Shown piece by piece: positions 24,965-46,830 of a stretch of DNA of 64,000 nt; position 1 is the stretch's first letter, and each line of letters begins with the position of its first letter. Position numbers and translations under genes: made by a program. The notes beneath the pieces are model-generated. The model made no database searches. It was not told the DNA's origin and saw only the letters and a list, made by a program, of their open reading frames with translations. The DNA is from Candidatus Planktophila sp. (GTDB lineage Bacteria; Actinomycetota; Actinomycetes; Nanopelagicales; Nanopelagicaceae): contig JAUXRP010000040.1 in assembly GCA_030681675.1 (NCBI GenBank), positions 342,557-406,556 on the forward strand, read 5' to 3'.

Positions 24965-26029
24965 ATGAACGCAATTAATGAACGCATTCAGCCAATCCGC
25001 GAGTTGATGAAGAAAAAGGGGCTAGACGCTTTTGTTGTACGCCGAAATCCAAATCTAGCATGGGCGATTGCAGGTCGTGCTCATGTCCCATCCACAATTG
25101 ATGCAGCATGTTTTGATCTCATTGTGACTTTGGATTCAGTTATAGCGGTCACTAATTCAATCGAAGCGCCGCGTTTAGTGGCAGAAGAGTTTCCGGCTGG
25201 GCTGGAAGTAAAGATTATTAACTGGTGGGAAGGTCGAGACTCTCTTCTACCAAGAGGCGACATGGTTGGTTCTGATCAAGCAGGTGCCGGACGTATTGAT
25301 TTGAGTTTGGAAGTTGAAGTAATACGTTCCTCGCTGATTGAATCTGATGTTGCACGTTTTAAAGAGATCTGCGTTGATGCAGCTTCGGCATTGGGAGCTG
25401 CAATGAAGGAAGTTAAAAGTTCAGATCGCGAAATTGATGTAGCAGGATTGATTTCTAAATCATTATGGGAGTCTGATTTAGAGATTGCTTTTCTAGGTGT
25501 CGCAGGTGAGTCACGAGTGAAGAGATTTAGACACCCACTCCCGACTAGTGAATTAGTCGGCTCGCGTGTGGTGGCATCAATTTGTGCCAAACGAAAAGGG
25601 TTAATTGCATCGCTTACTCGGATAGTCACTTTTGGTGAATTATCTGAACCTGAAATCAACTCATATTTCTCACTTTTACAGGTTGAAGCCGCGCTTTTTG
25701 ATGCAACAAACGTTGGGAGTGCATTTAGCGAGCCAGTAAAGGCAGCCGTTACCGCCTATCCTGCCAATGGATTTGATGCCGATGAGTGGACTCACCACCA
25801 TCAAGGAGGACCTACGGGATATCTACCCAGAGATTGGCCGGCCACCACAACGACAACTCGATTGATCGCCGAACACCAACCAATTGCCTGGAATCCAACG
25901 GGTCAGGGGTGGAAAGTAGAAGATACGCTTCTAACAACAACATCTGGAGTCAAAATCCTCTCAATCGATCCCAATTGGCCCATGCGAATGGTCCAGGGTA
26001 GAAATCGTCCGAACCTGCTTCGTAAATAG
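24965..26029 (+). CDS. M24-peptidase-like protein lacking metal ligands
   Basis: 354 residues. The N-terminal about 125 residues resemble the creatinase/prolidase N-domain (RELMKKKGLDAFVVRRNPN). The second half has the pita-bread outline, with HHHQGGPTGYLPRDWP and a GQGWKVEDT-type segment. The Asp-Asp and Glu-Glu pairs that bind two metals in active M24 enzymes are not recognisable. A conserved group of such non-canonical homologues exists in bacteria, with unknown function. Catalysis as a dipeptidase is doubtful. Confidence 0.72.
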   Translation: MNAINERIQPIRELMKKKGLDAFVVRRNPNLAWAIAGRAHVPSTIDAACFDLIVTLDSVIAVTNSIEAPRLVAEEFPAGLEVKIINWWEGRDSLLPRGDMVGSDQAGAGRIDLSLEVEVIRSSLIESDVARFKEICVDAASALGAAMKEVKSSDREIDVAGLISKSLWESDLEIAFLGVAGESRVKRFRHPLPTSELVGSRVVASICAKRKGLIASLTRIVTFGELSEPEINSYFSLLQVEAALFDATNVGSAFSEPVKAAVTAYPANGFDADEWTHHHQGGPTGYLPRDWPATTTTTRLIAEHQPIAWNPTGQGWKVEDTLLTTTSGVKILSIDPNWPMRMVQGRNRPNLLRK

Positions 26030-27162: not shown

Positions 27163-27955
27163 TCAGAGCCTTAGCTGCACTTAATTCATCAGCAAGCACA
27201 ATGGTATCTGGATGCGATTGAAGTAAAGTGATCGGATAACTCACACTCAAAGGCCCTTTAACAAATTGATAAATTGCTTCATTTTGGCGAATACCACCAT
27301 CGCAATATAAGCGAACTTTTTTTGAAGAGAGAATTAAATCCATCCCAATCGTTACTGCTAATGTAGGAAAATCTGAGAAATTTCCTCCGGCAGATCGCAG
27401 AGCATTTATCACAAAAGTTTCTGGAGTAAGTGATACAACTCTTGTTTTGGAGTTAGCAAACTCTTCAATAGAAATCGCGCCATATTTTGAAACGGGGGGT
27501 TCATTAAATGCAATGTGTCCATTTACGCCGACTCCTCCATAACAGACATCAACTCCACCTAAATTATTAAAAAAACGTTCCGTCCGATCGATATCGAATG
27601 GGTCGGGAACCACCCATTGTGCCTCACTAGGCCGTAATTCAATATCTAACGAGTTTAGAAATACTTCAAACGAGCCTTTAAAACTTAACGAGTGGCTTGT
27701 CGGAAGTGGTCGACCTTGCCAGTCCAAGTACTCATCCATGAGGGAGATAAAAACTCCTTGAAACGAAATCCTTTCGCTGTTGCATATTGCTGCTAAGAGT
27801 GGGTAGTGAGCAACTGGCCCAACTGGGAATATCAGCTTTAGCTCCCGCCCATCTCGATGTGCTTGTTTGATTTCATCGGCTATTTCTCGGGCAAAACTGG
27901 CATAAACATCCTGTGGTTCAGGAACAACTACTAACCGTGCCTTCACACATTTCAC
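27152..27955 (-). CDS. Glucosamine-6-phosphate deaminase-like protein
   Basis: 267 residues with the NagB fold: LMDEYLDW near residue 95 (proton-transfer Asp), GGVGVNGHIAFNEP near residue 145 and LTPETF. In E. coli NagB the sequence is NDGHIAFNEP and the Asp (141) helps sugar-ring opening with His143; here it is Asn. The protein may be a slower deaminase or an isomerase for another phosphosugar. Linked to nagA by overlap. AAAGGTG precedes the ATG. Confidence 0.8.
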   Translation of the reverse strand: MKCVKARLVVVPEPQDVYASFAREIADEIKQAHRDGRELKLIFPVGPVAHYPLLAAICNSERISFQGVFISLMDEYLDWQGRPLPTSHSLSFKGSFEVFLNSLDIELRPSEAQWVVPDPFDIDRTERFFNNLGGVDVCYGGVGVNGHIAFNEPPVSKYGAISIEEFANSKTRVVSLTPETFVINALRSAGGNFSDFPTLAVTIGMDLILSSKKVRLYCDGGIRQNEAIYQFVKGPLSVSYPITLLQSHPDTIVLADELSAAKALNVN

Positions 27956-28072
27956 CTTTCATGGCCATTAACGAGCAGGAGCGTGGCTAGCCCCGGGCTT
28001 AAGTAACAGTTTGATAAAGGTACCCAAATACAATTGACTTGGATAGGCTAAAGGTGGCACCCTCCTCCAAGA

Positions 28073-28081
28073 GGTCTTACC
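28073..28081. promoter_or_regulatory. FadR-type operator before isomerase operon
   Basis: GGTCTTACC, in the longer context AAGAGGTC-N2-ACCACT, lies just upstream of the GGAGG ribosome site of the isomerase gene. It matches the site at 36421-36429 at 16 of 18 positions, indicating one GntR/FadR-family regulator, most simply the product of 32752-33468. Confidence 0.6.
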
Positions 28082-28093
28082 ACTGGAGGTTAA

Positions 28094-29494
28094 ATGAGCA
28101 CCGTTGCTCTCGTTGCATTAGCGCGACCTACCTTTGATCTCACGTGCGCACAGGCTAATTTCGATAGCGCGAGGTCATTACTTCTCGAACTCGGTGCGCA
28201 AGTGGTCGGACCAGCAGAGCTCGTAATGACCCCTGAGGATGTTGCTGCAGTCACACTTCCTCCAGCCGATCTACATATTCTATTTATGGCCTCATTTTCA
28301 GATGCATCACCAGCCGTTGAACTTCTCGGAAAAGTTAAAGGCCCGATTCTTGGCTGGTCAATGCGAGAGCCTGGAGCCGTGGGAGAGCGGCTGAAACTCA
28401 ATTCAATGTGCGGAGTCAATCTTGCCGCACACGCTTTGATGAATGTTGGTCAATCGATGCGACATATTCATGGAAATGCAGATGAGCCTGACGTGCGCAG
28501 CGCGATCAAAGCAGCGCTCGCAGGAGAGCTACCAACTGCAGATGCTCCAAAGATTGTCTCTGGAGAATTTGCAACAGATGCCGTAGTTGATGCTGCATTT
28601 GCATGGCTTAAAGGAAAAAAGATTGGAGCGGTAGGTGAGGCTCCCAATGGCTTCACGCCATGCGTTTTTGATGGTCCACAACTGCAGAAACTCTTCGGTC
28701 TTGATGTTCGACAGATAACAATTGATGATGCTTTTGGAAGAATTTCTGAGGTAAGTGAAGATGCACGCGAACTTGCATACGCAAATGCAGTCTCCGCACA
28801 ACCATCACTTTCATCTGTCAATGTGATAGAGGCAAAGAAAGTTTATGGAGTCGAAGTTGCGTTAGATAACTGGCGAGTTGCAGAGTCATTAGATGCAATT
28901 GCAATTAGATGCTGGCCAGAGTTTCCTACAGATTTAGGTGCTTGCATTTGCTCATCCCTCGGTCGATTATCTGATCGCGGCACTGTTACAACGTGCGAAC
29001 GCGATGTGCTTGGAGCCGTCACGATGATGGTCTGCGAATCTCTGGGTTCGGATGAAAATTATTTAGTTGACATAGTGGACCTTGATGCCTCTCAAAATTT
29101 AGTACGTTTGTGGCACTGTGGATCCGCAGCCACAAAACTCGCAGCTGACCCAATGAATGCAACACAAACAACCCACTGCAACCGCAAACTAGGCGTTGCA
29201 GGTAACTTTCCGCTCAAGACCGGACCAGTAACACTGTTTCGAATTGATCGGGATGTAGATCCGAGCAACCGCACGGGTTTACGAATGGTTGTGAGCCGAG
29301 GGGAATCAATCCCTGCTCCCAATCACTTCCAAGGCAATACAGCCACGGTCGTCACTCAACCCGACGCCGCAGCTTTAGTAAATGGAATAGTCACTGGTGG
29401 ATACCCACATCACTTGGTAATCTCGTGGATCGATGTGCGTCCGGGTATTCGGCAGATGGCAAAGAAGTTAGGGATCCCCCTCACAGAATGGTAA
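28094..29494 (+). CDS. Sulfosugar (sulfoquinovose) isomerase candidate, L-fucose/arabinose isomerase fold
   Basis: 466 residues of the L-fucose/L-arabinose isomerase superfamily, with metal-binding Glu in the IRCWPEFP and CERDVLGA segments and His residues near the end (PNHFQGN, GGYPHHLVISW). By fold it is an aldose-ketose isomerase. It heads an operon of importer, FadR regulator, PfkB kinase and YihT/LacD-like aldolase, followed by suyAB. An SqvD-type isomerase converting sulfoquinovose to 6-deoxy-6-sulfofructose, as I recall for the actinobacterial sulfo-EMP2 route, fits best. An ordinary pentose or fucose isomerase is less likely. Confidence 0.75.
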   Translation: MSTVALVALARPTFDLTCAQANFDSARSLLLELGAQVVGPAELVMTPEDVAAVTLPPADLHILFMASFSDASPAVELLGKVKGPILGWSMREPGAVGERLKLNSMCGVNLAAHALMNVGQSMRHIHGNADEPDVRSAIKAALAGELPTADAPKIVSGEFATDAVVDAAFAWLKGKKIGAVGEAPNGFTPCVFDGPQLQKLFGLDVRQITIDDAFGRISEVSEDARELAYANAVSAQPSLSSVNVIEAKKVYGVEVALDNWRVAESLDAIAIRCWPEFPTDLGACICSSLGRLSDRGTVTTCERDVLGAVTMMVCESLGSDENYLVDIVDLDASQNLVRLWHCGSAATKLAADPMNATQTTHCNRKLGVAGNFPLKTGPVTLFRIDRDVDPSNRTGLRMVVSRGESIPAPNHFQGNTATVVTQPDAAALVNGIVTGGYPHHLVISWIDVRPGIRQMAKKLGIPLTEW

Positions 29495-29528
29495 ATCAAC
29501 CCACAAACCCTCGAAAGCAAGGACAACA

Positions 29529-30971
29529 ATGAAAACTAAAGGAACTAAAACCTTCAGCATGAGTCGCCTTGGAGCAGTAGCTGCAGTTGCATTTGCACTT
29601 GTCGCTACCACAGTTCCATCCGCGTTTTCAGCTGGAGAAGTATTCGGAAAAAAATGTTCGACGGAAGGAATCAGCACTGGAACCAGTTCTACTTCTCTTG
29701 TTTGTAAAGAAAATGCAGCGGGCAAGTTAACTTGGCAGCGAGTCCGACTCGCCAGTGGCAATGGTGCCCCTGTTGCAGCTCTTAGAGCTCTACCGGGAAC
29801 AATTGAGTTCCACCACTGGCGCGGTGCTGAAGATGGCAAAATCTTTGACGAGATAATTGCTCTCTTTGAGGCAAGAAATCCTGGCGCAAAAGTCAAGCAG
29901 GTCACTATGCCATCCGGCGACTACACGAACCTTGCATTTTCGAGGATTCGTTCAAATCCAAAGGCTGCCGTCTTCGCAACTTTCCGCGGCTCCCAATTCG
30001 CACAGTTCGCTAAAGGCGACTTGATGACGGATTTGAAAAATGAACGCTTTACTAGACAAAATGTAATTGCTACTGGTCTGACTGCAGGTCAGTATGAGGG
30101 TAAGCAACTAGGCATTCCATTGCATTACCTCTTTAATAATCCTGTCTACAACACAGAGATTTTTGCTAAGGAAAAATGGACACCCCCAACTAACTTCACA
30201 GGACTTCTTGCTTGGTGTAAGGCCGCCAAAACTGCAGGGTATACACCTTTAGCGTGGTCAGGTGGATTCCGTCCAAATGCTGGACAGATGCTCAACTCAA
30301 TGTTGATGAACTCAGCGCCAGATTATGCAACGCTTTTGCAGCGCATTGAAGATATCGATACTGGTAAAGCAGATTTACAAACTGCTTGGTTTAAAGACAT
30401 GGCTAATCGCTATAAGAAGATGGCTGATGCCAATTGCTTCCCTGACAATGCAACTGGAGTAACAGATGCCGCTGCATTAAACCTCTTTGCAACTGGAAAA
30501 TCTCCAGTTCTTCCAACAGGATCTTTTTCGATGGGATCAATTAAAGTCCTTAACCCTTCAATGGCTGGCAAGATGCAGCTTTTTTCACTCATAACAACGG
30601 ATGAGAAGCCTCAGTACGTTGGAATCCAAAACAACACATTCATTTTGAGTGTCAATAAGAACTCAAATGCAAGAGATCAAAAGATAGCAAGGGCATTTAT
30701 TTCATTCTTAATGACTGGTGAAATAGCATCTATTTATGCAAATGGAACCTCACAGCATGTAAATGTTTTAAATGTTACATATACGAATCAAGATTTGATT
30801 AATACTTCTATATGGCAGTCGAAGAAGACGCTTTTGGCACCACGCTTCAACTGGCTAAATCAGGGAGTGCGCGATCTAATGGAGGATGCCCTCATTGCTA
30901 TTGTGGGTGGTAAACCAATCGATGCTACTTTAGAAGATTACTCGAAACAGATTAAGCAAAAGCTAGGCTAA
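29529..30971 (+). CDS. CUT1-type sugar-binding protein with extra N-terminal Cys module
   Basis: A 480-residue family 1 solute-binding protein. A cleavable signal peptide (hydrophobic helix, then PSAFSA) is followed by a small two-Cys module of about 35 residues (GKKCSTEG ... SLVCKENAAGKLTW) before the binding-protein body begins near residue 95. The body contains IPLHYLFNNPVYNTEIF and FATGKSPVLPTGSF. There is no lipobox, so anchoring may involve the Cys module. It probably binds sulfoquinovose or its glycerol glycoside. The permeases follow; no ATPase is encoded nearby. Confidence 0.85.
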   Translation: MKTKGTKTFSMSRLGAVAAVAFALVATTVPSAFSAGEVFGKKCSTEGISTGTSSTSLVCKENAAGKLTWQRVRLASGNGAPVAALRALPGTIEFHHWRGAEDGKIFDEIIALFEARNPGAKVKQVTMPSGDYTNLAFSRIRSNPKAAVFATFRGSQFAQFAKGDLMTDLKNERFTRQNVIATGLTAGQYEGKQLGIPLHYLFNNPVYNTEIFAKEKWTPPTNFTGLLAWCKAAKTAGYTPLAWSGGFRPNAGQMLNSMLMNSAPDYATLLQRIEDIDTGKADLQTAWFKDMANRYKKMADANCFPDNATGVTDAAALNLFATGKSPVLPTGSFSMGSIKVLNPSMAGKMQLFSLITTDEKPQYVGIQNNTFILSVNKNSNARDQKIARAFISFLMTGEIASIYANGTSQHVNVLNVTYTNQDLINTSIWQSKKTLLAPRFNWLNQGVRDLMEDALIAIVGGKPIDATLEDYSKQIKQKLG

Positions 30972-30984
30972 CCCAATCTCAACT

Positions 30985-31923
30985 ATGAAGACGCTGAGTA
31001 GCCCCCTCAATAAAATGAGTGGGGCTACTCGTCGTTCCTCCAAAAATCGTCGTGCGGTCCAAGGATCAAAAACTGCTCTATATTGGATGTCAGCACCTGC
31101 ACTTGCTCTTTATGCGTTTCTATTTTTATTTCCAGTTTTGAGCAACTTCAGATATGCGCTCATGAAGTGGGATGGAATAGATGAGGGAGAATTTGTCGGT
31201 CTAGCGAACTTTAAAAAACTCGCGACGGATGATGATTTGGCAACTAAAGTTTTAGGTAACAACATTGAGTTCATGTTTTGGGTTGTCATTTTTCAGACTT
31301 TACTAGCCCTTCTCTTTGCAACTTATTTAGTTAAAAATACTCGAGCTAGCTTATTTTTTAGAACGCTATTCTTTTTCCCCACAATTCTCTCCTCAGTCTC
31401 TGTGGCCATGATTTGGCTCTTCCTTTATGACCCTAACTACGGCGCAATCAACTCAACTCTGGTACGTCTTGGGCTCGATTCCTTTGCGCTGAATTGGTTA
31501 GGTAGCGAAACATCCGCTTTATATGCGATTATCTTTGTTCAAGTTTGGTTTCACACTGGCCAAATGATGGTGATCTATATTGCAGGGCTCCAGCAGATCC
31601 CCGCTGAGCTCTATGAGGCAGCAAACGTTGATGGTGCAAGTCGATGGCAACAATTCAAATCAGTTACTTGGCCGATGGCACTTCCCACAAGCGCCGTGGT
31701 AGTTGCCTATACGACAATTCAATCTTTTAGAGCCTTTGATCTCGTTTATGCAACGACTCAAGGTGGTCCAAATAATTCAACATCAATTCTCACAACGATG
31801 ATTTTTCAGACAGCTTTTAATGAATTTAGATTTGGATATGCGGCGTCTCAGTCAATAATAATGATCATCATGATCTTCCTCATCACTGGTCTGCAACGTC
31901 GTATTTTACGGACTAGGTATTAG
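30985..31923 (+). CDS. CUT1 sugar ABC transporter permease (MalF/UgpA-like)
   Basis: 312 residues, about six transmembrane helices. The EAA loop reads LYEAANVDGASRWQQFKSVTWP, the contact site for the ATPase, and the pattern ends in DLVYATTQGGP. The N-terminal 30 residues are basic. It pairs with the permease that begins 9 bases after it. Probably imports the sulfosugar. Confidence 0.92.
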   Translation: MKTLSSPLNKMSGATRRSSKNRRAVQGSKTALYWMSAPALALYAFLFLFPVLSNFRYALMKWDGIDEGEFVGLANFKKLATDDDLATKVLGNNIEFMFWVVIFQTLLALLFATYLVKNTRASLFFRTLFFFPTILSSVSVAMIWLFLYDPNYGAINSTLVRLGLDSFALNWLGSETSALYAIIFVQVWFHTGQMMVIYIAGLQQIPAELYEAANVDGASRWQQFKSVTWPMALPTSAVVVAYTTIQSFRAFDLVYATTQGGPNNSTSILTTMIFQTAFNEFRFGYAASQSIIMIIMIFLITGLQRRILRTRY

Positions 31924-31932
31924 GGAGGGGAA

Positions 31933-32748
31933 ATGATGTATAAAATAACGCGTTGGATTGCCCTCTCATTTTTCTCTCTCTTGATATTGATTCCCAGCAC
32001 TATGGTCTTCTTGGGCTCCTTTAAGAGTGATTTAGAGATTTATGACTCTCCTATGGCATTACCGGTAAAGTGGACTCTAAATAATTACCAACGTCTTTTG
32101 GATGACGGTGACATCCTGATCAATTTCAAAAATAGCATAATTGTTACGTTTTTCTCAGTCGTAATTACTTTACTATTGGCGAGTATGGTTTCATTTGCGA
32201 TCGCTAGATTGATGAATGTTACGGGGAAAGTGCTTTTTGTTCTATTTTCACTCGGATTAGCAATTCCAGGCCAAGTAAATATAATTCCAATCTATTTACT
32301 TTTCAGCGACTTAGGTCTTACAAACACATATCATGGATTAATCGCAGTAAATATTGTGGCGACCTTGCCTATTTCTGTTTTTATCCTGACTTCATTTTTC
32401 CGTGAACTTCCTAATGAAATGTATGAAGTTGCATCTATTGACGGAGCATCACACTTTAGGGTTTTTAGATCTATAGCGGTACCTCTTTCAAGACCGGCTT
32501 TAGGAGCAACTTCTATTTTCCTCTTTGTTATTTGTTGGAATGATCTTCTATTCCCATTACTTCTAATTACTGAAAGTGCAAAGAAGACTTTGCCTCTCGC
32601 AATGCTGGATTACCGAGGAGAGTATGCTACAAGCTTTAGCATGATCTTCACGGCTGTCATGGTTGCGTCGATCCCGATGGTTGTGATGTATTTGGCGATG
32701 CAGAAGTCATTCGTTGCGGGTCTCACAGCGGGTGCCGTGAAGGGATAA
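31933..32748 (+). CDS. CUT1 sugar ABC transporter permease (MalG/UgpE-like)
   Basis: 271 residues, six helices, with EAA loop MYEVASIDGASHFRVFRSIAVPLSRPAL and the C-terminal FVAGLTAGAVKG typical of MalG-like subunits. AGGGAGGGG precedes two consecutive ATGs (31933, 31936). The regulator gene follows directly. As the operon has no ATP-binding subunit, a shared MsmK/UgpC-type ATPase from elsewhere must serve it. Confidence 0.92.
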   Translation: MMYKITRWIALSFFSLLILIPSTMVFLGSFKSDLEIYDSPMALPVKWTLNNYQRLLDDGDILINFKNSIIVTFFSVVITLLLASMVSFAIARLMNVTGKVLFVLFSLGLAIPGQVNIIPIYLLFSDLGLTNTYHGLIAVNIVATLPISVFILTSFFRELPNEMYEVASIDGASHFRVFRSIAVPLSRPALGATSIFLFVICWNDLLFPLLLITESAKKTLPLAMLDYRGEYATSFSMIFTAVMVASIPMVVMYLAMQKSFVAGLTAGAVKG

Positions 32749-32751
32749 TTG

Positions 32752-33468
32752 GTGAACAAGCGAGCAACAGAACTTCTTCCTCAACGAGCTGCAAAGATTG
32801 CACAGCAGCTTCTAGATATAATTGAAATTCAAAAATTAGAACCAGGTCACAAGTTGCCACCAGAACGCCAACTTGCGGAGATGCTAGAAGTAAGCCGCCC
32901 AAGTTTACGTGAAGCGTTACACATTTTGCAGGCACAAGGACGAGTACAGATTAAGCATGGCCAGGGGACGTTTGTACAAGAACCGGTAATTGCACAAGAG
33001 CTTCGGGCCTCGGTTATGTCAAAAACGCATGGTCTGAATGAATTATTTAATGCTCGAGAAGTTTTGGAAGTCCCAGCTTCAAAATGGGCCGCCGAGAAAG
33101 CAACAAAGGAGAACATCAGGCTACTTCGTGCAACCTTAAATCAAATTGACACTGTTACAGCATCCGAACCAATTGATTACGAGCAACTACAGACCTTAGA
33201 TGCCAAATTTCACTTAACAATTGTTGAAATTGCAGGAAATAGATTTATAAACCAAACTTTAAATGTGTTACAGGACGTGATGAAAATGTCTATGGAAACA
33301 ACTCTCCGATTGCCGGGACGCATGAAAATTTCTCGAAATGAGCATAGTGCAATTTTGGCGGCAATTGAATCTGGAGATGGCGACCTTGCATTAAAACTAA
33401 CATTGCAACACATAACTGGTGCTCGAGCCGTAGCTTTGGCGAATGCTCACGAAAAGAATCAACATTGA
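32752..33468 (+). CDS. GntR/FadR-family transcriptional regulator
   Basis: 238 residues. The N-terminal winged helix has LEPGHKLPPERQLAEMLEVSRPSLREALHIL, with the family's hallmark Arg and the RV-IKHGQGTFV wing. An all-helical FadR (FCD) ligand domain follows with Asp/His metal residues (DAKFHLTIVEIAGN, RNEHSAILAAIESGD). I chose GTG 32752 (AAGGGA 6 bases upstream) over TTG 32749. It probably represses or activates the sulfosugar locus through the GGTC-N-GACC sites at 28073, 36421 and 45403, with a pathway intermediate as ligand. Confidence 0.9.
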   Translation: MNKRATELLPQRAAKIAQQLLDIIEIQKLEPGHKLPPERQLAEMLEVSRPSLREALHILQAQGRVQIKHGQGTFVQEPVIAQELRASVMSKTHGLNELFNAREVLEVPASKWAAEKATKENIRLLRATLNQIDTVTASEPIDYEQLQTLDAKFHLTIVEIAGNRFINQTLNVLQDVMKMSMETTLRLPGRMKISRNEHSAILAAIESGDGDLALKLTLQHITGARAVALANAHEKNQH

Positions 33469-34358
33469 GCCAAATTGAAGTTGTTTGCGTCGGGGTAATA
33501 ACCATCGACACAATCGCACTTGTTGATGCCTACCCCGCTGAAGATGAGCGAGTTTTAGCTAAAGAAATTGTACGTGCCGGTGGGGGACCAGCTGCGGTAG
33601 CGGCGGTAGCACTTAGTCGCCAAGGTATTCGCACCGCAATTGCTGGAACTATTGGTGCTGATGCTGATGGCCTCGAAGTTATGAACATTTTTTCTCGTGA
33701 GAATATAGACACAACGGGAATTTCATTTGGTGAAAATGCAACTGCAGGTAGTGTCATCATTGCATCACGTGAGCACAACACTCGTGCAATAAGTACTCGC
33801 CAACCAATGAACCAGCAAGAGTTAAACCTGGAAGCGAAGAATTTAATTAGGCAAGCACGTTGGGTGCATGTGGATCATGTGGGTGTGGGGCAATTATTCG
33901 GTGCCGGTCTTACAAGGGGCATGGGACCACTAATTTCATTTGATGCTGGCTACGGAGCAGAAGAGTTTGACTCATCAATGGTCGACCTCTTCGTACCGAC
34001 AGATCGTCAAATTGCAGCTCGATATCCACATCTAGATTTTGCTACGGCTTTGGAAGATGACGCCACAAATGCTGGGAATATCGTTGTTGCGACTCGAGGT
34101 TCGGAAGGTAGTACTGCATTTTCGTCAGAAACTGGGCTAATTTCAACACCAGGATTTAAAGTCGATGTCAAAAGCACATTAGGTGCAGGCGATGTATTTC
34201 ATGGCGCTTTAGTTGCACAGCTGATTCATGGTCACCCTTTACAAGAGGCGATGCGTAGAGCAAATGCTGTCGCCGCACTTTCTTGCCGAGGTCTAGATGG
34301 TCAATCAATGATTCCAACAACAATCGAACTCAATGAATACCTGGAGGCGCAAATATGA
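33465..34358 (+). CDS. PfkB-family sugar kinase, sulfofructose kinase candidate
   Basis: 297 residues of the ribokinase/PfkB family. It has the N-terminal GGGPAAVAAVALSRQG and the C-terminal signature STLGAGDVFHGAL with catalytic Asp243. It starts with a TTG that overlaps the regulator's TGA and ends overlapping the aldolase. By position it would phosphorylate 6-deoxy-6-sulfofructose at C1 (YihV/SqiK role). The family alone would also allow other ketohexose or ribokinase substrates. Confidence 0.8.
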   Translation: MSQIEVVCVGVITIDTIALVDAYPAEDERVLAKEIVRAGGGPAAVAAVALSRQGIRTAIAGTIGADADGLEVMNIFSRENIDTTGISFGENATAGSVIIASREHNTRAISTRQPMNQQELNLEAKNLIRQARWVHVDHVGVGQLFGAGLTRGMGPLISFDAGYGAEEFDSSMVDLFVPTDRQIAARYPHLDFATALEDDATNAGNIVVATRGSEGSTAFSSETGLISTPGFKVDVKSTLGAGDVFHGALVAQLIHGHPLQEAMRRANAVAALSCRGLDGQSMIPTTIELNEYLEAQI

Positions 34359-35236
34359 GAGCACCACTTACCCATTTAGCTAGACCATCGGGTGCGCTCG
34401 CGATGGTTGCCGTAGATCAACGGGAGGCTTTGCGTGGAATGTTTGCGGCTCATCAATCTGCTCCAGTTACAGATGCACAGCTAACTCAGTTCAAAGTTGA
34501 TGTTGCGCGAGAACTTTCACCATTTGCATCGGCGCTTCTTGTCGATCAAGAGTTTGGCATTGATGCAATTATCGGCCAGAAAGCGCTCGCTGATACTTGC
34601 GGATTGATTGCAGCAGCGGATTTATTGGTAGGACCTCCAGGGGGAGCAGCTACAGAAACTGCAATTGATCCAGATGTAGACCCTCTTCGAATGCGAGATA
34701 TTGGGAGTGTGGGACTTAAGTTCCTAGTTTTGTGGCGCAACGATGAGTCGCCAGAGATTCGAGCGAAATTAGTGGAGGAATTTAATAACTTATGTGAAGT
34801 TTCAGAGTTGCCATCAATTATAGAAATCATTGTAAAGCCACCAATAGATTCATCAAGGAGTTTCAATCGTGAGGAGGAATTGATAATTGCTGCACGTGAA
34901 GCTGCAACATGGAAGCCAGATCTTTATAAGGCGGAGGTTCCATTCCACGGTGAAGGTAATCTAAACCTAATAACAAAGAATGCCGAAAGAATTTCAGAAG
35001 CCATCGGTTCGCCGTGGGTCGTACTCTCAAATGGCGTAAAGCAGCCATTTTTCAATGATGCTGTTAAGGCATGTGCAATGGGTGGAGCAAGCGGATTCCT
35101 TGCCGGTCGTGCAGTTTGGGCCGACATTGTGGGGGCGGCAGATATCCCTAAGTCGTTACGTGAAACCTCTATTCCCCGTTTACAACGGCTCGCTGAAATT
35201 GTTGACACCCATGCAAAACCTTGGAGCAATTGGTAA
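34355..35236 (+). CDS. Class I aldolase, YihT/LacD-like, sulfofructose-1-phosphate aldolase candidate
   Basis: 293 residues of the class I (Schiff-base) LacD/YihT-like TIM-barrel family. It contains VDQEFGIDAI, the conserved RMRDIGSVGLKFLVLWR and DLYKAEVPFHGEG, in which Lys192 lies where YihT has its Schiff-base lysine. It should cleave the phosphorylated sulfo-ketose to DHAP and 3-sulfolactaldehyde. It overlaps the kinase gene by 4 bases and abuts the convergent Gfo/Idh gene with no gap. Tagatose-1,6-bisphosphate aldolase is the main alternative, made unlikely by the suy genes. Confidence 0.8.
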   Translation: MRAPLTHLARPSGALAMVAVDQREALRGMFAAHQSAPVTDAQLTQFKVDVARELSPFASALLVDQEFGIDAIIGQKALADTCGLIAAADLLVGPPGGAATETAIDPDVDPLRMRDIGSVGLKFLVLWRNDESPEIRAKLVEEFNNLCEVSELPSIIEIIVKPPIDSSRSFNREEELIIAAREAATWKPDLYKAEVPFHGEGNLNLITKNAERISEAIGSPWVVLSNGVKQPFFNDAVKACAMGGASGFLAGRAVWADIVGAADIPKSLRETSIPRLQRLAEIVDTHAKPWSNW

Positions 35237-36340
35237 TTAGTTCCAGAGTTCTTTGATTTCAACTACTCGGCCTTCATTAATACTTTTGTGAGCAGCAAGA
35301 CCTGTAACTACGCTGGTCACCCCATCTTTTAAAGTAACTTCTGGACCAGTTGAATTCAAGATCGCGTCGCGAAACTTAGTATGTTCGATATATGAAGCAC
35401 CATAGTGGTGACCCATGTATTTAACATCGTAGTTGTGAACTATCTTCTGTTCATTTCCACGTGATCGGCTTGCACCACGTGACCAACCAGAAAGCTTGCC
35501 TATTGATTCACGACGAGAAGCACGCACAACTTGTGAAGGCAAGAAAGATTCAATCTTTCCTTCATCTCCGACAATAGTCAGAATCTCTTTATCAAAAGAT
35601 CCCTCACCAAACATGCATAGATCTAACATTCCGCGAGCACCATTTGCATACTCCAAAACAACATAGGCGTTATCTAACATGTTCGCTTGTTTGCCATCAT
35701 ACTTTTCATCTAGGTGGTTAACACTTTGTCCACCTGATGCAAAGACACGGATTGGTTGTTCGCCAATGACGATGTCCATCAAGTTGAAATAGTGGCAGCA
35801 CTTTTCAACCAATGTTCCGCCTGTGCGATCTGCAAAGCGATTCCAGTTATCAACTTTTGGGTAAAAAGGTTCGCGGTGTTCGCGAATTGACACCATATGT
35901 ATTTTTCCAGCATCGCCTTCTTTTGCTCGGGCAATAGCCTCAGCAACAGGTGGCATAAATCGGTATTCAAGCCCCATCCACGTCATGGCGTTACGGTTTT
36001 CATCCCAGCTAAGTATTGATTTCAAATCTTCGATAGTTGTTGCGAGTGGTTTTTCGACAAAGACTGCTAAATCAGTGGAAAGAACTTCCTTCAAAATACT
36101 TGCATGAGTGTCATTTGGAGTCGCAATTACAACCGCATCGACTAACCCTGAATCTAGAAGCCCACGGTGATCGCTAAATACCTTTGCGCCAGAGGCCATG
36201 GAAAGGGCCGCTTCCTGAGATGGAATGTGAGGGTCGCTGATAGCGGTAATTGTCGCCCCATCCATGAGTTTGATGTTTTCAATGTGCTCACGCCCCATGC
36301 TGCCTACGCCAATAACGCCGTACCGAAGTTCAGTTTTCAT
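35237..36340 (-). CDS. Gfo/Idh/MocA-family protein, candidate NAD-dependent sulfoquinovosidase
   Basis: 367 residues: Rossmann half with VIGVGSMGREHI and EKPLATT, then the C-terminal alpha/beta half with GGTLVEKCCHYFNLMD. NAD-dependent glycosidases (families GH4, GH109 and the more recent GH188 sulfoquinovosidases, as I recall) share this fold, oxidising the sugar transiently at C3. Placed between the sulfosugar aldolase and suyA and sharing their operator, it may release sulfoquinovose from its glycosides. A simple sugar dehydrogenase is the alternative. Confidence 0.68.
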   Translation of the reverse strand: MKTELRYGVIGVGSMGREHIENIKLMDGATITAISDPHIPSQEAALSMASGAKVFSDHRGLLDSGLVDAVVIATPNDTHASILKEVLSTDLAVFVEKPLATTIEDLKSILSWDENRNAMTWMGLEYRFMPPVAEAIARAKEGDAGKIHMVSIREHREPFYPKVDNWNRFADRTGGTLVEKCCHYFNLMDIVIGEQPIRVFASGGQSVNHLDEKYDGKQANMLDNAYVVLEYANGARGMLDLCMFGEGSFDKEILTIVGDEGKIESFLPSQVVRASRRESIGKLSGWSRGASRSRGNEQKIVHNYDVKYMGHHYGASYIEHTKFRDAILNSTGPEVTLKDGVTSVVTGLAAHKSINEGRVVEIKELWN

Positions 36341-36347
36341 GGTTACA

Positions 36348-36429
36348 GGTTAGACCACTGGCCGAATTTTCGGCATAGGGGTAGACGAAACGCGCTCGTC
36401 TAACCTAGAATCTGTCAAGAGGTCAGACC
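36348..36429. promoter_or_regulatory. Divergent promoter with three GGTTAGACC/GGTCAGACC boxes
   Basis: GGTTAGACC (36348-36356), its partial inverse GTCTAACC (36398-36405) and the perfect palindrome GGTCAGACC (36421-36429) lie between the Gfo/Idh and suyA genes. TAGACG (36382) and TAGAAT (36406) could be -35/-10 for suyA. A FadR-type regulator is indicated. GCCGAA-TT-TTCGGC (36361-36374) is a further small palindrome. Confidence 0.6.
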
Positions 36430-36464
36430 ACTACCCAACTTAGGCGAGAAAGGCACGTGTAGTT

Positions 36465-36767
36465 ATGGCAATTACTCCACCGCAGTTCCTCCTTCACCAT
36501 GACGGCGACAACGTTGCCGTCGCGATGACGGACCTGCAACCAGGAACACTTCATGGCAGGTCAGTAAAGGAGGGAACCGAGAGTGAGGCGGTCTTAAATC
36601 ACGCTATCCCTCTTGGACATAAATTTGCACTAACAGATTTGGCCGAAGGTGATGCGATCATCAAATACGGCACCAAAGTAGGACTTGCATCCGCTGCAAT
36701 CAAAAAAGGCGATTACATTCACACACACAACATGAGGAGTTATCGATGGGAAGCAAGCCGCGCTTAA
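36465..36767 (+). CDS. suyA: (R)-sulfolactate sulfo-lyase, small subunit
   Basis: 100 residues, an SAF-domain protein like the N-terminal part of altronate dehydratase (UxaA). HHDGDNVAVAMTDLQPG near the start and IHTHNMRSYRW at the end are the characteristic ends of SuyA. With SuyB it splits sulfolactate into pyruvate and sulfite. Its end overlaps suyB by 22 bases. Annotated by many pipelines as altronate dehydratase, but the following dehydrogenase pair and exporter favour sulfolactate. Confidence 0.85.
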   Translation: MAITPPQFLLHHDGDNVAVAMTDLQPGTLHGRSVKEGTESEAVLNHAIPLGHKFALTDLAEGDAIIKYGTKVGLASAAIKKGDYIHTHNMRSYRWEASRA

Positions 36768-37912
36768 TGGGATATCGCCGTGAAAACGGCGCGATGGGTA
36801 TTCGCAATCACGTCATTATTTTGCCGCTCGATGACCTCTCAAATGCCGCGGCAGAGGCCGTTGCCAAAGTCATTCCAGGCACTCTTGCACTGCCACATGC
36901 TTTTGGCCGTTTACAGTTTGGCGATGATTTAGCTCTAACTTTCCAGACACTCATTGGAACTGGAAAGAATGCAAATGTTGCAGCTGTTGTTGTTATTGGT
37001 ATCGAACCAAAGTGGACACAGAAAGTTGCCGATGGAATCGCAGTTACTGGGAAACCGGTTGCGGCTTTTTCAATAGAAGGTAAGGGCGATCTACATGTAA
37101 TAGCTGAAGCCAGTCGCGCAGCGGCGATGTTCTTGCAGGATGCCTCGGCGTTAGAGCGAGAGGCCGCTGAAATGGGCGACATGATTATGTCAATCAAGTG
37201 CGGCGAATCAGATACAACATCTGGCCTCGGATCGTGTCCAACAACTTCACAGGCTGTTGATCGATGGGTTGCCGCAGGAGGAACAGTATTCTTCGGTGAA
37301 ACATCTGAACTTACCGGTGGCGAAAACTTAATTGCCGATCGATGTATAGATGATGCATGCCGCGATTTATTCCAACTCACGTATGACAACTACATCAAAG
37401 TTATTGAATCAACAGGTGCAAACCTTCTCGGCTCACAACCTACTCAAGGAAATATTGCTGGCGGATTAACAACTATCGAAGAGAAAGCACTTGGCAATAT
37501 TGCAAAAACTGGATCAGTTCCGGTCGTCGGTGTTCTAAGACCGGCTGAAGAACCAGATCCGAAGAAGAAAGGTCTGTATTTTATGGATTCATCTTCAGCT
37601 GCCGCAGAGTGCATAACTCTCATGGCTGCTGCAGGCGCTGTTATCCACTTGTTCCCAACAGGCCAGGGAAATGTAATTGGAAATCCAATCATCCCTGTCT
37701 TGAAGTTAACGGCAAATACTAAGACTGCAAATTCCATGAAAGAGCATATAGATCTAGATGTTTCTGGCCTCCTTCGTTATGAGTACGATTTAGTAAAAGC
37801 CGGTGACATGATGATGGATGTTATTAATAAGACTGTAAATGGTCGCTTATGTACCGCAGAAGTTATGGGACATCGTGAGTTCACTTTCACGAAACTATAT
37901 ATTTCGGCATAA
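36746..37912 (+). CDS. suyB: (R)-sulfolactate sulfo-lyase, large subunit
   Basis: 388 residues, UxaA/altronate-dehydratase C-terminal domain family and the usual SuyB length. It contains MGYRRENGAMGIRNH, MSIKCGESDTTSGLGSCPT with the metal/cluster-associated Cys, GENLIADRC, GNIAGGLTTIEEKALG and HLFPTGQGN. GAGGAG precedes the ATG inside suyA. The product is pyruvate plus sulfite. Followed with a one-base overlap by an SlcC-like dehydrogenase, as in known sulfolactate loci. Confidence 0.86.
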   Translation: MGSKPRLMGYRRENGAMGIRNHVIILPLDDLSNAAAEAVAKVIPGTLALPHAFGRLQFGDDLALTFQTLIGTGKNANVAAVVVIGIEPKWTQKVADGIAVTGKPVAAFSIEGKGDLHVIAEASRAAAMFLQDASALEREAAEMGDMIMSIKCGESDTTSGLGSCPTTSQAVDRWVAAGGTVFFGETSELTGGENLIADRCIDDACRDLFQLTYDNYIKVIESTGANLLGSQPTQGNIAGGLTTIEEKALGNIAKTGSVPVVGVLRPAEEPDPKKKGLYFMDSSSAAAECITLMAAAGAVIHLFPTGQGNVIGNPIIPVLKLTANTKTANSMKEHIDLDVSGLLRYEYDLVKAGDMMMDVINKTVNGRLCTAEVMGHREFTFTKLYISA

Positions 37913-38850
37913 TGATTCTCATCTCTGAAGATGTATGGGGAGCTCCCTTCCAAGACCTGGAGGGGAGTTTTCCTATTCATCGCGGTGATGATTTGTGGAA
38001 AAATCCAGAGGAACTTTTAGATTCAATTAAAGATGCAACTGCACTTGTAGTTCGCAACCGCACGAAAGTAACTGCGAATATTATTGCCGCAGCGCCAAAA
38101 CTGAAGGTAATCGCTCGTGCCGGGGTGGGTCTAGACAATATAGATATTAAAGCCGCCGATGCAGCGGGAGTCGTTGTCGTCGCCGGACTCGGTGCAAATG
38201 CAGTAAGTGTCGGTGAATTAACTCTTGGATTAGCTTTAGCGCTACTTCGCAATATCCCGAACCATGATGTTGCCACGCGCAATGGTGGTTGGATTCGCTC
38301 TCCAGGTCGCGAATTATCCGGACTCACATGGGGGTTGCTTGGATGTGGTGCAACGGGATTAGCAACGGCAAAACTTCTTCAAGGTTTTGGCTGCGAAATT
38401 ATTGGATACGACCCCTTCGCTAAAGATCTAGATTCGATTACGTTGACCACCTTCGAAGAGGTACTAAAGCGCAGCGATATCGTAAGTATTCATATGCCTT
38501 CGACACCGCAGACAAATGGTGCAATCAATTCCGAAACTCTCGACTTGATGAAAATAGATGCAATCATTATTAACGTCGGACGTGGAGAAGTAATTAATGA
38601 GGAAGATCTTATTGCAGCTCTAAAAAATGGGAGGATTGCTGGCGCGGCACTTGATGTTCGCGCACAAGAGCCACCAGTTACAGGTGAAATGGAGAGCATT
38701 CTTAACTTAATTCTGACTCCACATGTTGCCGGGATTACTTCAGAGAGCCAATTGCGCATTAATCAGATTTTGACCTCAAATATTGAGTTAGTTCTTAACT
38801 CAAAACCAGCAACACATGCCGTTGGTGCATTAAAAGTAAGCAGTAACTAG
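37912..38850 (+). CDS. slcC: (S)-sulfolactate dehydrogenase-like D-2-hydroxyacid dehydrogenase
   Basis: 312 residues of the phosphoglycerate-dehydrogenase-like family: VVRNRTKV, ARAGVGLDNID, NAD-binding GLLGCGATGLATAKLL, catalytic Arg in NVGRGEVI, Glu in DVRAQEPPV and His in LTPHVAG. In sulfolactate degraders SlcC oxidises (S)-sulfolactate to sulfopyruvate, and ComC reduces this to the (R)-form for SuyAB. Sulfoglycolysis yields the (S)-form, so both enzymes are needed. Position between suyB and comC supports the role; plain PGDH is the alternative. Confidence 0.82.
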   Translation: MILISEDVWGAPFQDLEGSFPIHRGDDLWKNPEELLDSIKDATALVVRNRTKVTANIIAAAPKLKVIARAGVGLDNIDIKAADAAGVVVVAGLGANAVSVGELTLGLALALLRNIPNHDVATRNGGWIRSPGRELSGLTWGLLGCGATGLATAKLLQGFGCEIIGYDPFAKDLDSITLTTFEEVLKRSDIVSIHMPSTPQTNGAINSETLDLMKIDAIIINVGRGEVINEEDLIAALKNGRIAGAALDVRAQEPPVTGEMESILNLILTPHVAGITSESQLRINQILTSNIELVLNSKPATHAVGALKVSSN

Positions 38851-39857
38851 TGGCGAAATTACAAGTAGGTGCAGCAATTGCACAGGCGCAAGCTTTATTA
38901 GAGGCGGTCGGTGTACCTACTTCTGAGGCTAAAACAACGGCCCGATTAATTGTCGCTAGTGATCGGTGGGGTATCGGAAGTCACGGTTTAATGCGCTTAC
39001 CTTTCTATTTGGCTCGCCTGCAGGCCGGTGGGATTAATCCAAAAGCAGAGTTGAAAAGAGTGACAGATCTTCCCAGCCTTGTCATATTTGATGGTGACGG
39101 TGGACTTGGTCATTGGCAATTACAAAAAGCTGCTGAAGTTGCATCAGAGCGCGCAAAAATAAATGGGATTGCAGCGGTTGGAGTTGGTCGCTCGAACCAT
39201 TGTGGAGCATTAGGAATTTACGTATGGCCAATGATTAATCGGGGATTAGTTGGTATTGCATTTAGTACTGGACCAGCAGTGATGCCTCCATGGGGCGGCA
39301 AAAAAGCGCTGCTTTCGACATCTCCGATGGCTGCAGGGATTCCAACGAATCCGCCAACGGTTATCGATCTTGCGACAAGCGCCGTTGCGCGAGGCAAGAT
39401 TCAAGCAAAGGCACAGGCCGGCGACGAGCTCGAACCTGGTTGGGCTTTTACTAAAGATGGTGCACCAACGACCGATGCTAAAGAGGCATTGGCTGGAATG
39501 CTTGCCCCACTTGGGGGAGCAAAGGGGTATGCAATTGCCGTTCTAGTTGAGTCATTAACTGGAATGCTCATTGGTCCGACATTAGCTAAAAATATTCCAG
39601 ATATGTTCGCATCCGATCAAGATGCGATACCACAAGAGATTTCACATTTTGTCATTGCAATCGATGCAGCAAAACTATCTGTAGATGGAAAAAATTCACG
39701 CACTCTAGAGTTTGCAGAAGAGGTGAAAATCGCTGGCGGTCGCCTTCCCGGTTCTACCCGTATAAATCCCGAAGAATTGAACAACAGTGATGAAATCACA
39801 ATTACTGATCTTGTAAATGATCAATTAGCACTCTGGTCAGCCAAGCTAGAGATTTAG
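38850..39857 (+). CDS. comC: (R)-sulfolactate dehydrogenase (malate/lactate dehydrogenase-2 family)
   Basis: 335 residues of the Ldh2/MDH2/ComC family, NAD(P)-dependent with a unique non-Rossmann fold. It has GSHGLMRLPFYLARLQAG, VGVGRSNHCGALGIY (catalytic His) and STSPMAAGIPT. GTG start overlapping the slcC stop by one base. It reduces sulfopyruvate to (R)-sulfolactate, the SuyAB substrate. A ureidoglycolate or malate dehydrogenase would have the same family motifs, but the operon makes ComC the best call. Confidence 0.84.
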   Translation: MAKLQVGAAIAQAQALLEAVGVPTSEAKTTARLIVASDRWGIGSHGLMRLPFYLARLQAGGINPKAELKRVTDLPSLVIFDGDGGLGHWQLQKAAEVASERAKINGIAAVGVGRSNHCGALGIYVWPMINRGLVGIAFSTGPAVMPPWGGKKALLSTSPMAAGIPTNPPTVIDLATSAVARGKIQAKAQAGDELEPGWAFTKDGAPTTDAKEALAGMLAPLGGAKGYAIAVLVESLTGMLIGPTLAKNIPDMFASDQDAIPQEISHFVIAIDAAKLSVDGKNSRTLEFAEEVKIAGGRLPGSTRINPEELNNSDEITITDLVNDQLALWSAKLEI

Positions 39858-40847
39858 ATGGTCAAAACTCTCCCAGGCATAGGTTTCATTGCCGCAATTG
39901 TTACCGTCGCCTTTCAAATACATAATTTTCAACCTGCGATTAGCCCGCTGGCTCTCTGCGTCGCCTTCGGGTTTTTGATTGCCAATCTTGGTTCCTGGCC
40001 AGCATTTGCAAATGAAGGCACATCGTTAGCTAGTAAAAGATTGATGCGCATCGGTGTTGCACTTTTAGGTGCACAAGTTAGCGTCGTTTCACTCCAAGCA
40101 ATCGGCATTAAAGGTGTCATCACTGTCATTCTCGTTGTGAGTTTTACGATATTTGGAATCCTTGCACTATCTAGATTATTCAATATGACAGGAGAGTTAG
40201 GTCTGCTCATCGGTGTTGGCTTCGGAGTTTGTGGCGCAACTGCAGTTGCCGCAATACGACCACAAACACGTGCAACTCAAGAAGAGACCTCATATGCAAT
40301 TGCATTGATCTCTTTGTGTGGAACCCTTTCAATATTCGTGCTTCCATTTCTTGGTCACTTAATGGGATTAAGTGATCAGACTTTCGGAGCTTGGGCCGGA
40401 GCTGCCGTTCACGATGTGGGTCAGGTAATTGCAACGGCCTCAGTCTGGAGTGACGATGCGGTGAAGTCAGCAATTGTTATCAAATTAGCCCGCGTCTGTT
40501 TGTTAGCACCTATAGTTTTGATTCTCTCGCTTCGCCATAGACGATATTTAAAAGCTCAGGGAGAGAGCGCGCAAACTTCAGCAAAAGTACCGTTGATACC
40601 TTTTTTTGTTCTAGGTTTCATCGCTGTAGCAACAGTTCAGAACACCGTGGATATTCCTATTGCTTTGCATGATTACATTGTTTTAGCTAGCAAAGTTCTA
40701 TTGGGAGCTGGATTAGTAGCTCTCGGTTCTAGTGTGCGATGGAAAGCTATCCGTGCGATAGGTCCACGACCAATGCTTATGGGGCTGATTGCTTGGATAA
40801 TTGTCGGTGGTGTCGCATTAGCTGCAGTCCGCATTACCGGGATTTGA
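39858..40847 (+). CDS. YeiH/UPF0324 family putative sulfite/sulfate exporter
   Basis: 329 residues, about ten transmembrane segments, with GVALLGAQVSV, GFGVCGATAVAAIRP and AGAAVHDVGQVIATAS, hallmarks of the YeiH (putative sulfate exporter) family. The ATG follows the comC stop with no gap. It would expel the sulfite released by SuyAB or the sulfate formed from it. Members of this family are found in sulfonate degradation loci. Last gene of the suy operon, ending just before a CsoR-type operator. Confidence 0.88.
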   Translation: MVKTLPGIGFIAAIVTVAFQIHNFQPAISPLALCVAFGFLIANLGSWPAFANEGTSLASKRLMRIGVALLGAQVSVVSLQAIGIKGVITVILVVSFTIFGILALSRLFNMTGELGLLIGVGFGVCGATAVAAIRPQTRATQEETSYAIALISLCGTLSIFVLPFLGHLMGLSDQTFGAWAGAAVHDVGQVIATASVWSDDAVKSAIVIKLARVCLLAPIVLILSLRHRRYLKAQGESAQTSAKVPLIPFFVLGFIAVATVQNTVDIPIALHDYIVLASKVLLGAGLVALGSSVRWKAIRAIGPRPMLMGLIAWIIVGGVALAAVRITGI

Positions 40848-40900: not shown

Positions 40901-41014
40901 ATGTGTTCACGCGTCACATGTCATGTCTGTAAAAAAGCGAGCTGGTCGGGCTGTGGAAATCACGTCGAGCAGGCACTTGCTGGAGTACCCGAGCAGGATC
41001 GTTGCACCTGCTAA
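40901..41014 (+). CDS. Tiny Cys-rich protein, paralogue of 43371 gene
   Basis: 37 residues, starting MCSRVTCHVC and ending QDRCTC, with seven or so cysteines/histidines likely to bind zinc or sulfane sulfur (CxxC pairs, WSGCGNHVE core). GGGAG precedes the ATG, and the stop overlaps the sensor gene (TAATG). A 56-residue paralogue lies at 43371. The function is unknown; conservation beside a CstR-type sensor suggests persulfide or metal handling. Confidence 0.85.
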   Translation: MCSRVTCHVCKKASWSGCGNHVEQALAGVPEQDRCTC

Positions 41015-41301: not shown

Positions 41302-41311
41302 GGGGAACATA

Positions 41312-46811: not shown

Positions 46812-46830
46812 TTTGTAATTTCAATTACTA

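Follow-up and report, generated by a model that had tools for sequence, protein, structure and literature searches.

A predicted gene cluster for breakdown of sulfoquinovose to pyruvate and sulfite in Candidatus Planktophila and related Nanopelagicaceae

Sulfoquinovose (SQ), the sugar of the sulfolipid made by plants and algae, ranks among the most abundant organosulfur compounds. Bacteria that degrade it by sulfoglycolysis usually excrete a C3 sulfonate, which is finished by other species. Here we describe a cluster of 13 genes at positions 28094-40847 of a 64,000-nucleotide stretch (the window, by which we mean its full length) from a Candidatus Planktophila sp. genome (assembly GCA_030681675.1, contig JAUXRP010000040.1; Nanopelagicaceae, Actinomycetota). 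We are fairly confident in the prediction that these adjoining genes serve the uptake of SQ and SQ glycosides and their breakdown within one cell to dihydroxyacetone phosphate (DHAP), pyruvate, and sulfite. If this is true, very common lake bacteria would release sulfite from the sulfolipid sugar without a partner. The presence of both halves of such a pathway in one bacterium was termed "unusual" in a 2025 paper (PMC12421959). Besides oxygenase routes, the one-organism precedents are a Klebsiella strain, Paracoccus wurundjeri on sulfofucose, and a predicted case in Ensifer (PMC10599462). A 2026 study put the share of freshwater genomes with SQ pathways at about 15% and reported oxygenase clusters in Actinomycetota (PMC13372026); its main text does not contain the string "Nanopelagic." In the full-text literature, a scope outside which subscription papers lie, no link between Nanopelagicaceae, Planktophila, or acI and sulfoquinovose was found among the matches listed.

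The sulfo-Embden-Meyerhof-Parnas (sulfo-EMP) cluster of Arthrobacter (strains AK01/AK04, PMC8873060; strains ISL-30 and SO3) has a PfkB kinase, a YihT-type aldolase, and a CUT1 importer in common with the cluster described here. Strain ISL-30 also shares the sulfoquinovosidase SqgA of glycoside hydrolase family 188 (GH188), and both ISL-30 and SO3 share an SqvD-type isomerase and an M24-like protein. The Arthrobacter cluster differs in containing its own sulfolactaldehyde dehydrogenase, and AK01/AK04 are described as excreting sulfolactate and as using a YihS isomerase, unlike the SqvD type found here (PMC8873060). The Arthrobacter stretches L216 and L220 are also unlike our cluster in holding no suyAB, the genes of sulfolactate sulfo-lyase. 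Paracoccus wurundjeri, which combines a sulfofucose Entner-Doudoroff (ED) pathway with SlcC, ComC, and SuyAB, has sulfosugar cleavage and sulfo-lysis in one organism, and the same racemizing pair; in the available part of its description it is likewise without a recognized sulfolactaldehyde dehydrogenase (SlaB) (PMC12421959). It differs in its substrate, in its ED-type upstream enzymes, and in being an alphaproteobacterium, and the same part of that source mentions no shared operator. A plasmid-borne suyAB cluster of Rhodococcus koreensis (L244) shares a FadR-type regulator, SuyA, SuyB (72% identity), and SlcC-like (52%) and ComC-like (53%) proteins, whereas it has its own aldehyde dehydrogenase, a major facilitator superfamily (MFS) transporter, and no SQ enzymes in the stretch. 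The sulfo-EMP2 pathway of Bacillus urumqiensis has the SqvD-type isomerase in common, but its kinase is of the PfkA type and its aldolase of class II, compared to PfkB and class I here (PMC9594981). Finally, in the sulfo-SMO and sulfo-SDO routes one organism also releases sulfite from SQ, but an oxygenase cuts the C-S bond first, whereas here the carbon chain would be cut first (PMC12890257). Compared to these systems, it is well supported that our cluster joins enzymes of known kinds in a new way, in a bacterial group that is both new and abundant, with an explicit shared operator.

The 13 genes are all open reading frames and form three groups by strand and position: sqvD through the aldolase gene on the plus strand, sqgA on the minus strand and ending against the aldolase gene, and suyA through yeiH on the plus strand. 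Neighboring genes abut or overlap, as a preliminary description of this DNA had stated, except among the transporter genes, where gaps of 9-34 bases occur, and between the divergently oriented sqgA and suyA, which are 124 bases apart. That description placed all of these genes correctly and assigned them to a small-genome actinobacterium, which is supported (the host assembly has 1.83 Mb and is 98% complete); it overlooked the M24-like gene, three operator-like sites, and the absence of a sulfolactaldehyde dehydrogenase. The 13-gene set occurs in identical order in 18 of the 28 loci of relatives (with suyB read in two pieces in one of the 18), so that a chance arrangement can be rejected. Eight of the remaining 10 loci are cut by contig ends, one is without the importer, and one is split by an insertion (L042/L096).

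The isomerase gene sqvD (28094..29494, plus strand) encodes a predicted SQ isomerase with an L-fucose/L-arabinose isomerase fold. Its protein model (pLDDT 94) best matches the folds of L-arabinose and L-fucose isomerases, and a comparison with PDB sequences gave no useful match. Residues E302, D326, and H440 are invariant in 21 sequences, and we take them to be the Glu, Asp, and His metal ligands, by ligand identity and spacing in FucI. Outside Actinomycetota, 16 of 20 loci of the isomerase family have a nearby relative of GH31 (at least 41% identical to YihQ) or of GH188 (at least 43%), thresholds that were chosen after the table of loci had been seen. The PfkB-family kinase (33465..34358, plus strand; PF00294), a predicted 6-deoxy-6-sulfofructose 1-kinase, shares 42.5% identity with the kinase encoded in an Arthrobacter SQ cluster, and its best match among solved structures is YihV at 87.9 bits, a small margin over ribokinase at 68.9. 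The aldolase (34355..35236, plus strand; PF01791), a predicted sulfofructose-1-phosphate aldolase, matches solved YihT structures at 249 and 237 bits and tagatose aldolases at 76. It is 44-46% identical to E. coli YihT, and the previously claimed Lys192 is indeed residue 192 and aligns with the Schiff-base lysine of YihT.

This set had been labeled sulfo-EMP2, a route defined by a PfkA-type kinase (SqiK) and a class II aldolase (SqiA) (PMC9594981). Because the kinase is a PfkB protein and the aldolase belongs to class I, the label does not apply. Judged by these family assignments, the upper half is instead a hybrid of an SqvD-type isomerase, a PfkB/YihV-type kinase, and a YihT-type class I aldolase. 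Other hybrid sulfo-EMP routes are known in Proteobacteria (PMC9594981, PMC12890257, PMC13372026).

The sqgA gene (35237..36340, minus strand) had been listed only as a Gfo/Idh protein; the gene is present, but its likely identity was missed. Among solved structures its product matches 8qc2 at 342 bits, 8qc3 at 340, and 8zn9 ("oxidoreductase, putative") at 294, with the next protein at 104. The first two are FlSqgA and ArSqgA; the source that names them gives Arg166 and Lys172 as binding the sulfonate and Lys107, Tyr136, Glu189, His193, and His321 as further active-site residues (PMC10755693). The equivalents by alignment to solved SqgA, namely Arg156, Lys162, Lys97, Tyr126, Glu179, His183, and His312, are invariant in 12 relatives. 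Glu163 of the same source (PMC10755693) has no certain equivalent in the alignment; an invariant Glu lies one position away. The protein, which retains the Arg and Lys that bind the sulfonate, is very probably a GH188 NAD-dependent sulfoquinovosidase. Since the nearest solved relatives of three enzymes are thus SQ enzymes, by large margins for SqgA and the aldolase and by a small one for the kinase, the reading of the locus as an SQ pathway is supported, and SQ stands as the predicted substrate, in agreement with the preliminary description. Uptake is ascribed to a CUT1 importer for SQ or SQ-glycerol, predicted from a solute-binding protein (29529..30971; PF01547) and two permeases (30985..31923 and 31933..32748; both PF00528), all on the plus strand. 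On one contig of a relative (L057 and L190), the importer genes are absent between sqvD and fadR and the rest of the cluster is kept.

The desulfonating half begins with suyA (36465..36767, plus strand), the predicted small subunit of sulfolactate sulfo-lyase, which contains an SAF domain and is 47% identical to a Rhodococcus and 37% to a Cupriavidus SuyA-type protein. The predicted large subunit, SuyB (36746..37912, plus strand), shares 72-73% identity with two proteins of Rhodococcus, 59% with the protein of Cupriavidus pinatubonensis HN-2 encoded beside hpsN and hpsO, and 55% with a Paracoccus protein. In the best 15 of 314 records, 13 show at least 54.7% identity and the next 39.3%, with altronate and galactarate dehydratases lower down. 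Within Nanopelagicaceae, the cluster-type suyB shows 79-98% identity compared to 31-36% for a paralogue. By these similarities the separate subunits SuyA and SuyB group with sulfolactate sulfo-lyases, not with the altronate dehydratases UxaA/GarD; the identification of SuyAB is credited to C. pinatubonensis JMP134 (PMC12890257). The next gene, slcC (37912..38850, plus strand; PF00389, PF02826), encodes a 2-hydroxyacid dehydrogenase, predicted to act on (S)-sulfolactate, that is 52% identical to a Rhodococcus protein of the suyAB cluster; its NCBIfam matches are generic and under cut-off. The product of comC (38850..39857, plus strand) is a predicted (R)-sulfolactate dehydrogenase, for which the top NCBIfam model is sulfolactate dehydrogenase at 195 bits, below the cut-off of 500. 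Racemization of sulfolactate by SlcC together with ComC has been described (PMC12421959). The last gene, yeiH (39858..40847, plus strand; PF03601, with TIGR00698 under cut-off), encodes a predicted sulfite exporter that is 28% identical to the exporter adjoining Paracoccus suyAB. As a prediction, the SlcC/ComC/SuyAB module proposed earlier is upheld.

Between the importer genes and the kinase gene lies fadR (32749..33468, plus strand), encoding a FadR/GntR regulator with an FCD domain (PF00392, PF07729). It is 44.5% identical to the regulator adjoining suyAB in Rhodococcus koreensis, and FadR-type genes adjoin suyAB in Rhodococcus and in three other suyAB loci examined (L281, L290, L291). Three operator-like sites of the cluster lie on the plus strand: AGGTCTTACCACT (28072..28084), 9 bases before the start of sqvD; AGGTTAGACCACT (36347..36359), 6 bases before the start of sqgA; and AGGTCAGACCACT (36420..36432), 32 bases before suyA. 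An earlier operator pattern, TnGTnnnACnA, had no match, and the motif was taken from an alignment instead. The resulting site, AGGTYNNACCAC, precedes sqvD in every one of the 36 named aldolase-bearing loci and is found twice in the sqgA-suyA intergenic region of all 19 loci holding both genes. The 36 loci contain 75 sites in 542,908 bases, none of them read on the minus strand; since the 75th (L170) precedes sqgA at a contig end, all 75 stand at the same three places. The pattern AGGTYNNACCACT occurs four times in the window, three of them in the cluster, compared to 0.03 expected from shuffles, and five times in the whole 1.83-Mb genome, again three in the cluster, where a reversed control pattern has two matches. 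The site contains GGT-N3-ACC, which we take to be an inverted repeat of the type used by FadR-type regulators. Because the same site stands before both halves of the cluster, they look like one regulon.

Based on these gene assignments we propose the following pathway, for which the enzyme families, the gene order, and the conserved sites are observed, and all substrates, the unlinked step, and the binding and sign of regulation are predicted. SQ or SQ-glycerol would enter through the CUT1 importer, and SqgA would free SQ from the glycoside. After isomerization of SQ to sulfofructose by SqvD, phosphorylation by the PfkB kinase would give sulfofructose-1-phosphate, which the YihT-type aldolase would cleave to DHAP and (S)-sulfolactaldehyde. 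The oxidation of (S)-sulfolactaldehyde to (S)-sulfolactate would most likely fall to a GabD-like aldehyde dehydrogenase whose gene lies in the same genome outside the cluster (contig C40, 201792-203165). SlcC and ComC would convert (S)-sulfolactate via sulfopyruvate to (R)-sulfolactate. Cleavage of the latter by SuyAB would give pyruvate and sulfite, with YeiH as the exporter of the sulfite. At the shared site, the FadR-type protein likely acts as repressor of all three promoters, so that the two halves would be induced together. Use of SQ to pyruvate and sulfite in one cell had also been inferred in the preliminary description; this inference is supported, except that the conversion of sulfolactaldehyde to sulfolactate is without a gene in the cluster.

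The candidate for this unlinked step comes from a comparison of dehydrogenases in nine genomes, six with the cluster and three without (G016, G097, G115), which covered 40 of the 47 listed matches in eight relatives and stretches with 13 of 14 matches in the genome of the window. One GabD-like group is common to all nine genomes and is, among the groups compared, the closest to the Arthrobacter enzymes. Among the matches covered, no dehydrogenase group, defined at 55% identity, was present in all six carriers and absent from all three noncarriers. The GabD-like group keeps both arginines of the type proposed to bind the sulfonate in RlGabD (PMC10599462). In two of 99 family loci (L089 and L095, both of genus g9), an aldehyde dehydrogenase gene adjoins the M24-like gene and is read from the opposite strand; its product is 64-72% identical to the GabD-like group and shares the arginine pair. 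The group was picked by the arginine pair and by similarity, and finding it beside the cluster in two genomes provides independent support for this candidate. The aldehyde dehydrogenases of the Arthrobacter SQ clusters and of the Rhodococcus suyAB cluster are 57% identical to each other. Two other candidates were rejected: a gene between the aldolase gene and sqgA in some relatives encodes a nucleoside hydrolase (PF01156) and is absent from the window, and the idea that the M24-like protein replaces the dehydrogenase is at odds with the Arthrobacter clusters, which carry both.

Several observations weigh against a one-cell SQ pathway as outlined above. The cluster in the window contains no aldehyde dehydrogenase gene, and neither do 97 of the 99 Nanopelagicaceae loci searched. 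The GabD-like candidate is also present in the three SQ-minus genomes and is thus not confined to carriers; it is only 35% identical to the Arthrobacter enzyme in the window's genome and at most 42% in relatives, and no operator-like site was found at the copy in the window's genome within the stretches scanned. SqvD matches NF048012 (sulfoquinovose isomerase) over residues 3-463 with 262 bits, and because this is below the cut-off of 700 it is to be regarded as a distant full-length relative, not as an SftI equivalog. The kinase is only 28% identical to E. coli YihV. For the ComC-like protein, L-sulfolactate dehydrogenase is third among solved relatives, with malate/lactate dehydrogenase slightly nearer. 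The nearest solved structures of the solute-binding protein are proteins that bind other sugars, and for this reason we only infer the ligand of the importer. Binding of the FadR regulator to the three sites is likely, as deduced from the motif type and the company of the gene. In the type of cluster that is without an aldolase, the site precedes sqgA in only four of 18 named loci, and 19 of the 47 genomes bearing suyB (18 of genus g17 and one of g9) show no YihT-type aldolase.

The missing dehydrogenase could also mean that two separate pathways adjoin each other, with the SQ half ending at an excreted C3 sulfonate and SuyAB, SlcC, and ComC serving imported sulfolactate. Its absence from nearly all family loci would fit this explanation, as would the excretion of sulfolactate by Arthrobacter with a related cluster (PMC8873060) and the insertion that parts the halves in one genome. 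Yet in each of the 19 loci that contain the two halves, both are preceded by the same site. Moreover, suyB accompanies the aldolase gene in 28 of the 29 genomes that have the latter, the exception being a single 88% complete draft with a cut contig. There is a single importer and a single exporter for both halves, and the GabD-like enzyme adjoins the cluster in two genomes. A search of six genomes for the YihU-like reductase gave no clear match: none in five, and in the genome of the window a single partial match of 26 bits. Two independent pathways are therefore unlikely.

Considerably less probable is a different sulfosugar, for example, sulfofucose or sulforhamnose, as the substrate. The L-fucose isomerase fold of SqvD and the known sulfofucose degrader with SlcC, ComC, and SuyAB (PMC12421959) would be in line with it. 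However, SqgA groups with SQ-cleaving GH188 enzymes of known structure and shares the residues with which they bind the sulfonate, relatives of the isomerase accompany GH31 or GH188 sulfoquinovosidase relatives, and the known sulfofucose route is an ED-type set, not an isomerase, a kinase, and an aldolase. An ordinary sugar-acid or deoxysugar pathway (tagatose, altronate) misread as a sulfosugar pathway, as the generic family models and the automatic annotation of relatives ("UxaA family hydrolase," "L-fucose isomerase-like protein") might suggest, is barely conceivable given that the aldolase is far closer to YihT than to tagatose aldolases, SqgA matches GH188, SuyB is split from altronate-type proteins, and two sulfonate-specific modules stand in one cluster.

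A wider version of the SQ pathway reading, to which we give only slightly better than even chances, is that members of the Nanopelagicales, the dominant actinobacterial order of fresh water, are self-sufficient mineralizers of the sulfolipid sugar; that one FadR-type regulon, with an unvarying operator at three promoters, joins the opening of glycosides, the hybrid sulfo-EMP route, and the sulfo-lysis of sulfolactate; that sulfolactaldehyde is oxidized by a GabD-type enzyme which core metabolism also uses; and that a metal-free M24-like protein is a new SQ-use enzyme of actinobacteria. In most relatives, the gene of this uncharacterized but conserved, prolidase-fold cluster member (24965..26029, plus strand in the window) immediately precedes sqvD or sqgA. 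The protein has no Pfam or NCBIfam match. Its model (pLDDT 92.5) has prolidases as the nearest folds, and alignment to 1wy2 shows replacements at four of the five positions that usually provide the metal ligands of M24 proteins. An HHQGG stretch and other residues are invariant in 16 sequences. The gene is present in 48 of 201 Nanopelagicaceae genomes, 43 of them with the suyB of the cluster and the other five drafts of 68-87% completeness, and in 30 of the 99 genomes that are at least 90% complete. It is also part of all four Arthrobacter-type clusters examined (L216, L220, L284, L285). Related M24 proteins are encoded near sugar genes on unrelated plasmids as well, and thus the fold alone is no marker of SQ use. 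In the window, nagA and nagB (26038-27955, opposite strand) are inserted between the M24-like gene and sqvD, as in the close relatives L167 and L168; most of the other aldolase-bearing loci have about 55-165 bases between these two genes.

Cluster-type suyB (at least 79% identity) is found in 47 of the 201 Nanopelagicaceae genomes, and 43 others have only the 31-36% paralogue. The aldolase (at least 73%) is present in 29. The counts 29, 47, 43, and 19 were tallied by hand from match tables. Among the carriers of the cluster are named isolates whose genomes are complete (Ca. Planktophila lacus MMS-21-148, IMCC19121, and IMCC26103), which makes our reading open to testing. In the aldolase-less version, the gene order in genus g17 (seven fullest loci, L080-L086) is M24-like, sqgA, sqvD, importer, fadR, pfkB, suyA, suyB, slcC, comC, and yeiH, where the contig reaches. 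This version sits in the ribosomal-protein operon, with secY, adk, and map on one side and the genes of S13, S11, and S4 on the other in the four loci reaching both sides; the other 12 of 16 loci have at least one of these genes, named here from Pfam, on whichever side is held. In five genomes of the aldolase-less genus a search for a replacement found no intact class II aldolase. Each has one DeoC-type protein and a transaldolase, the latter as in three other genomes searched, and a class I aldolase search gave weak matches in four of the five and no match in any of 14 controls. Beyond the family, a relative of the isomerase (E value of 1e-40 or better) is found in 48 of 396 genomes of the phylum, the genome of the window included. 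Three of 13 isomerase loci examined in the phylum also carry suyAB, indicating that the pairing is wider than Nanopelagicaceae.

Outside the phylum, Zymomonas mobilis plasmid pZZM402 (L246) carries genes of a class II aldolase, an aldose epimerase, an SqvD-type isomerase (29%), an SqgA-like protein (43%), and a succinate-semialdehyde-type dehydrogenase, which looks like an SQ cluster. A plasmid of Ca. Chlorohelix allophototropha (L247) combines genes of an SqvD-type isomerase, a pyrophosphate (PPi)-type phosphofructokinase, a dehydrogenase, an importer, a nitrite/sulfite reductase, and siroheme synthesis, so that SQ use is possibly tied to sulfite reduction there.

Some neighboring features of the window deserve mention. 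A tRNA-Ile predicted on the minus strand at 39762-39856 shares bases with the end of comC and is probably spurious. Genes of a CsoR-family regulator, a rhodanese, a CoA-disulfide reductase-rhodanese fusion, and a metallo-beta-lactamase-rhodanese protein are located beside the cluster (41002-43353 and 49708-51096), and might serve the handling of sulfite or persulfide; relatives of the first of these genes recur next to the cluster in some loci. A second CUT1 sugar importer is encoded 4.6 kb downstream (45495-48675), with the near-match site AGGTCTGACCACC (45401-45412, minus strand) about 80 bases upstream. This importer may belong to the same regulon, and in the relative G109 a full site stands at a similar distance (L040 13161).

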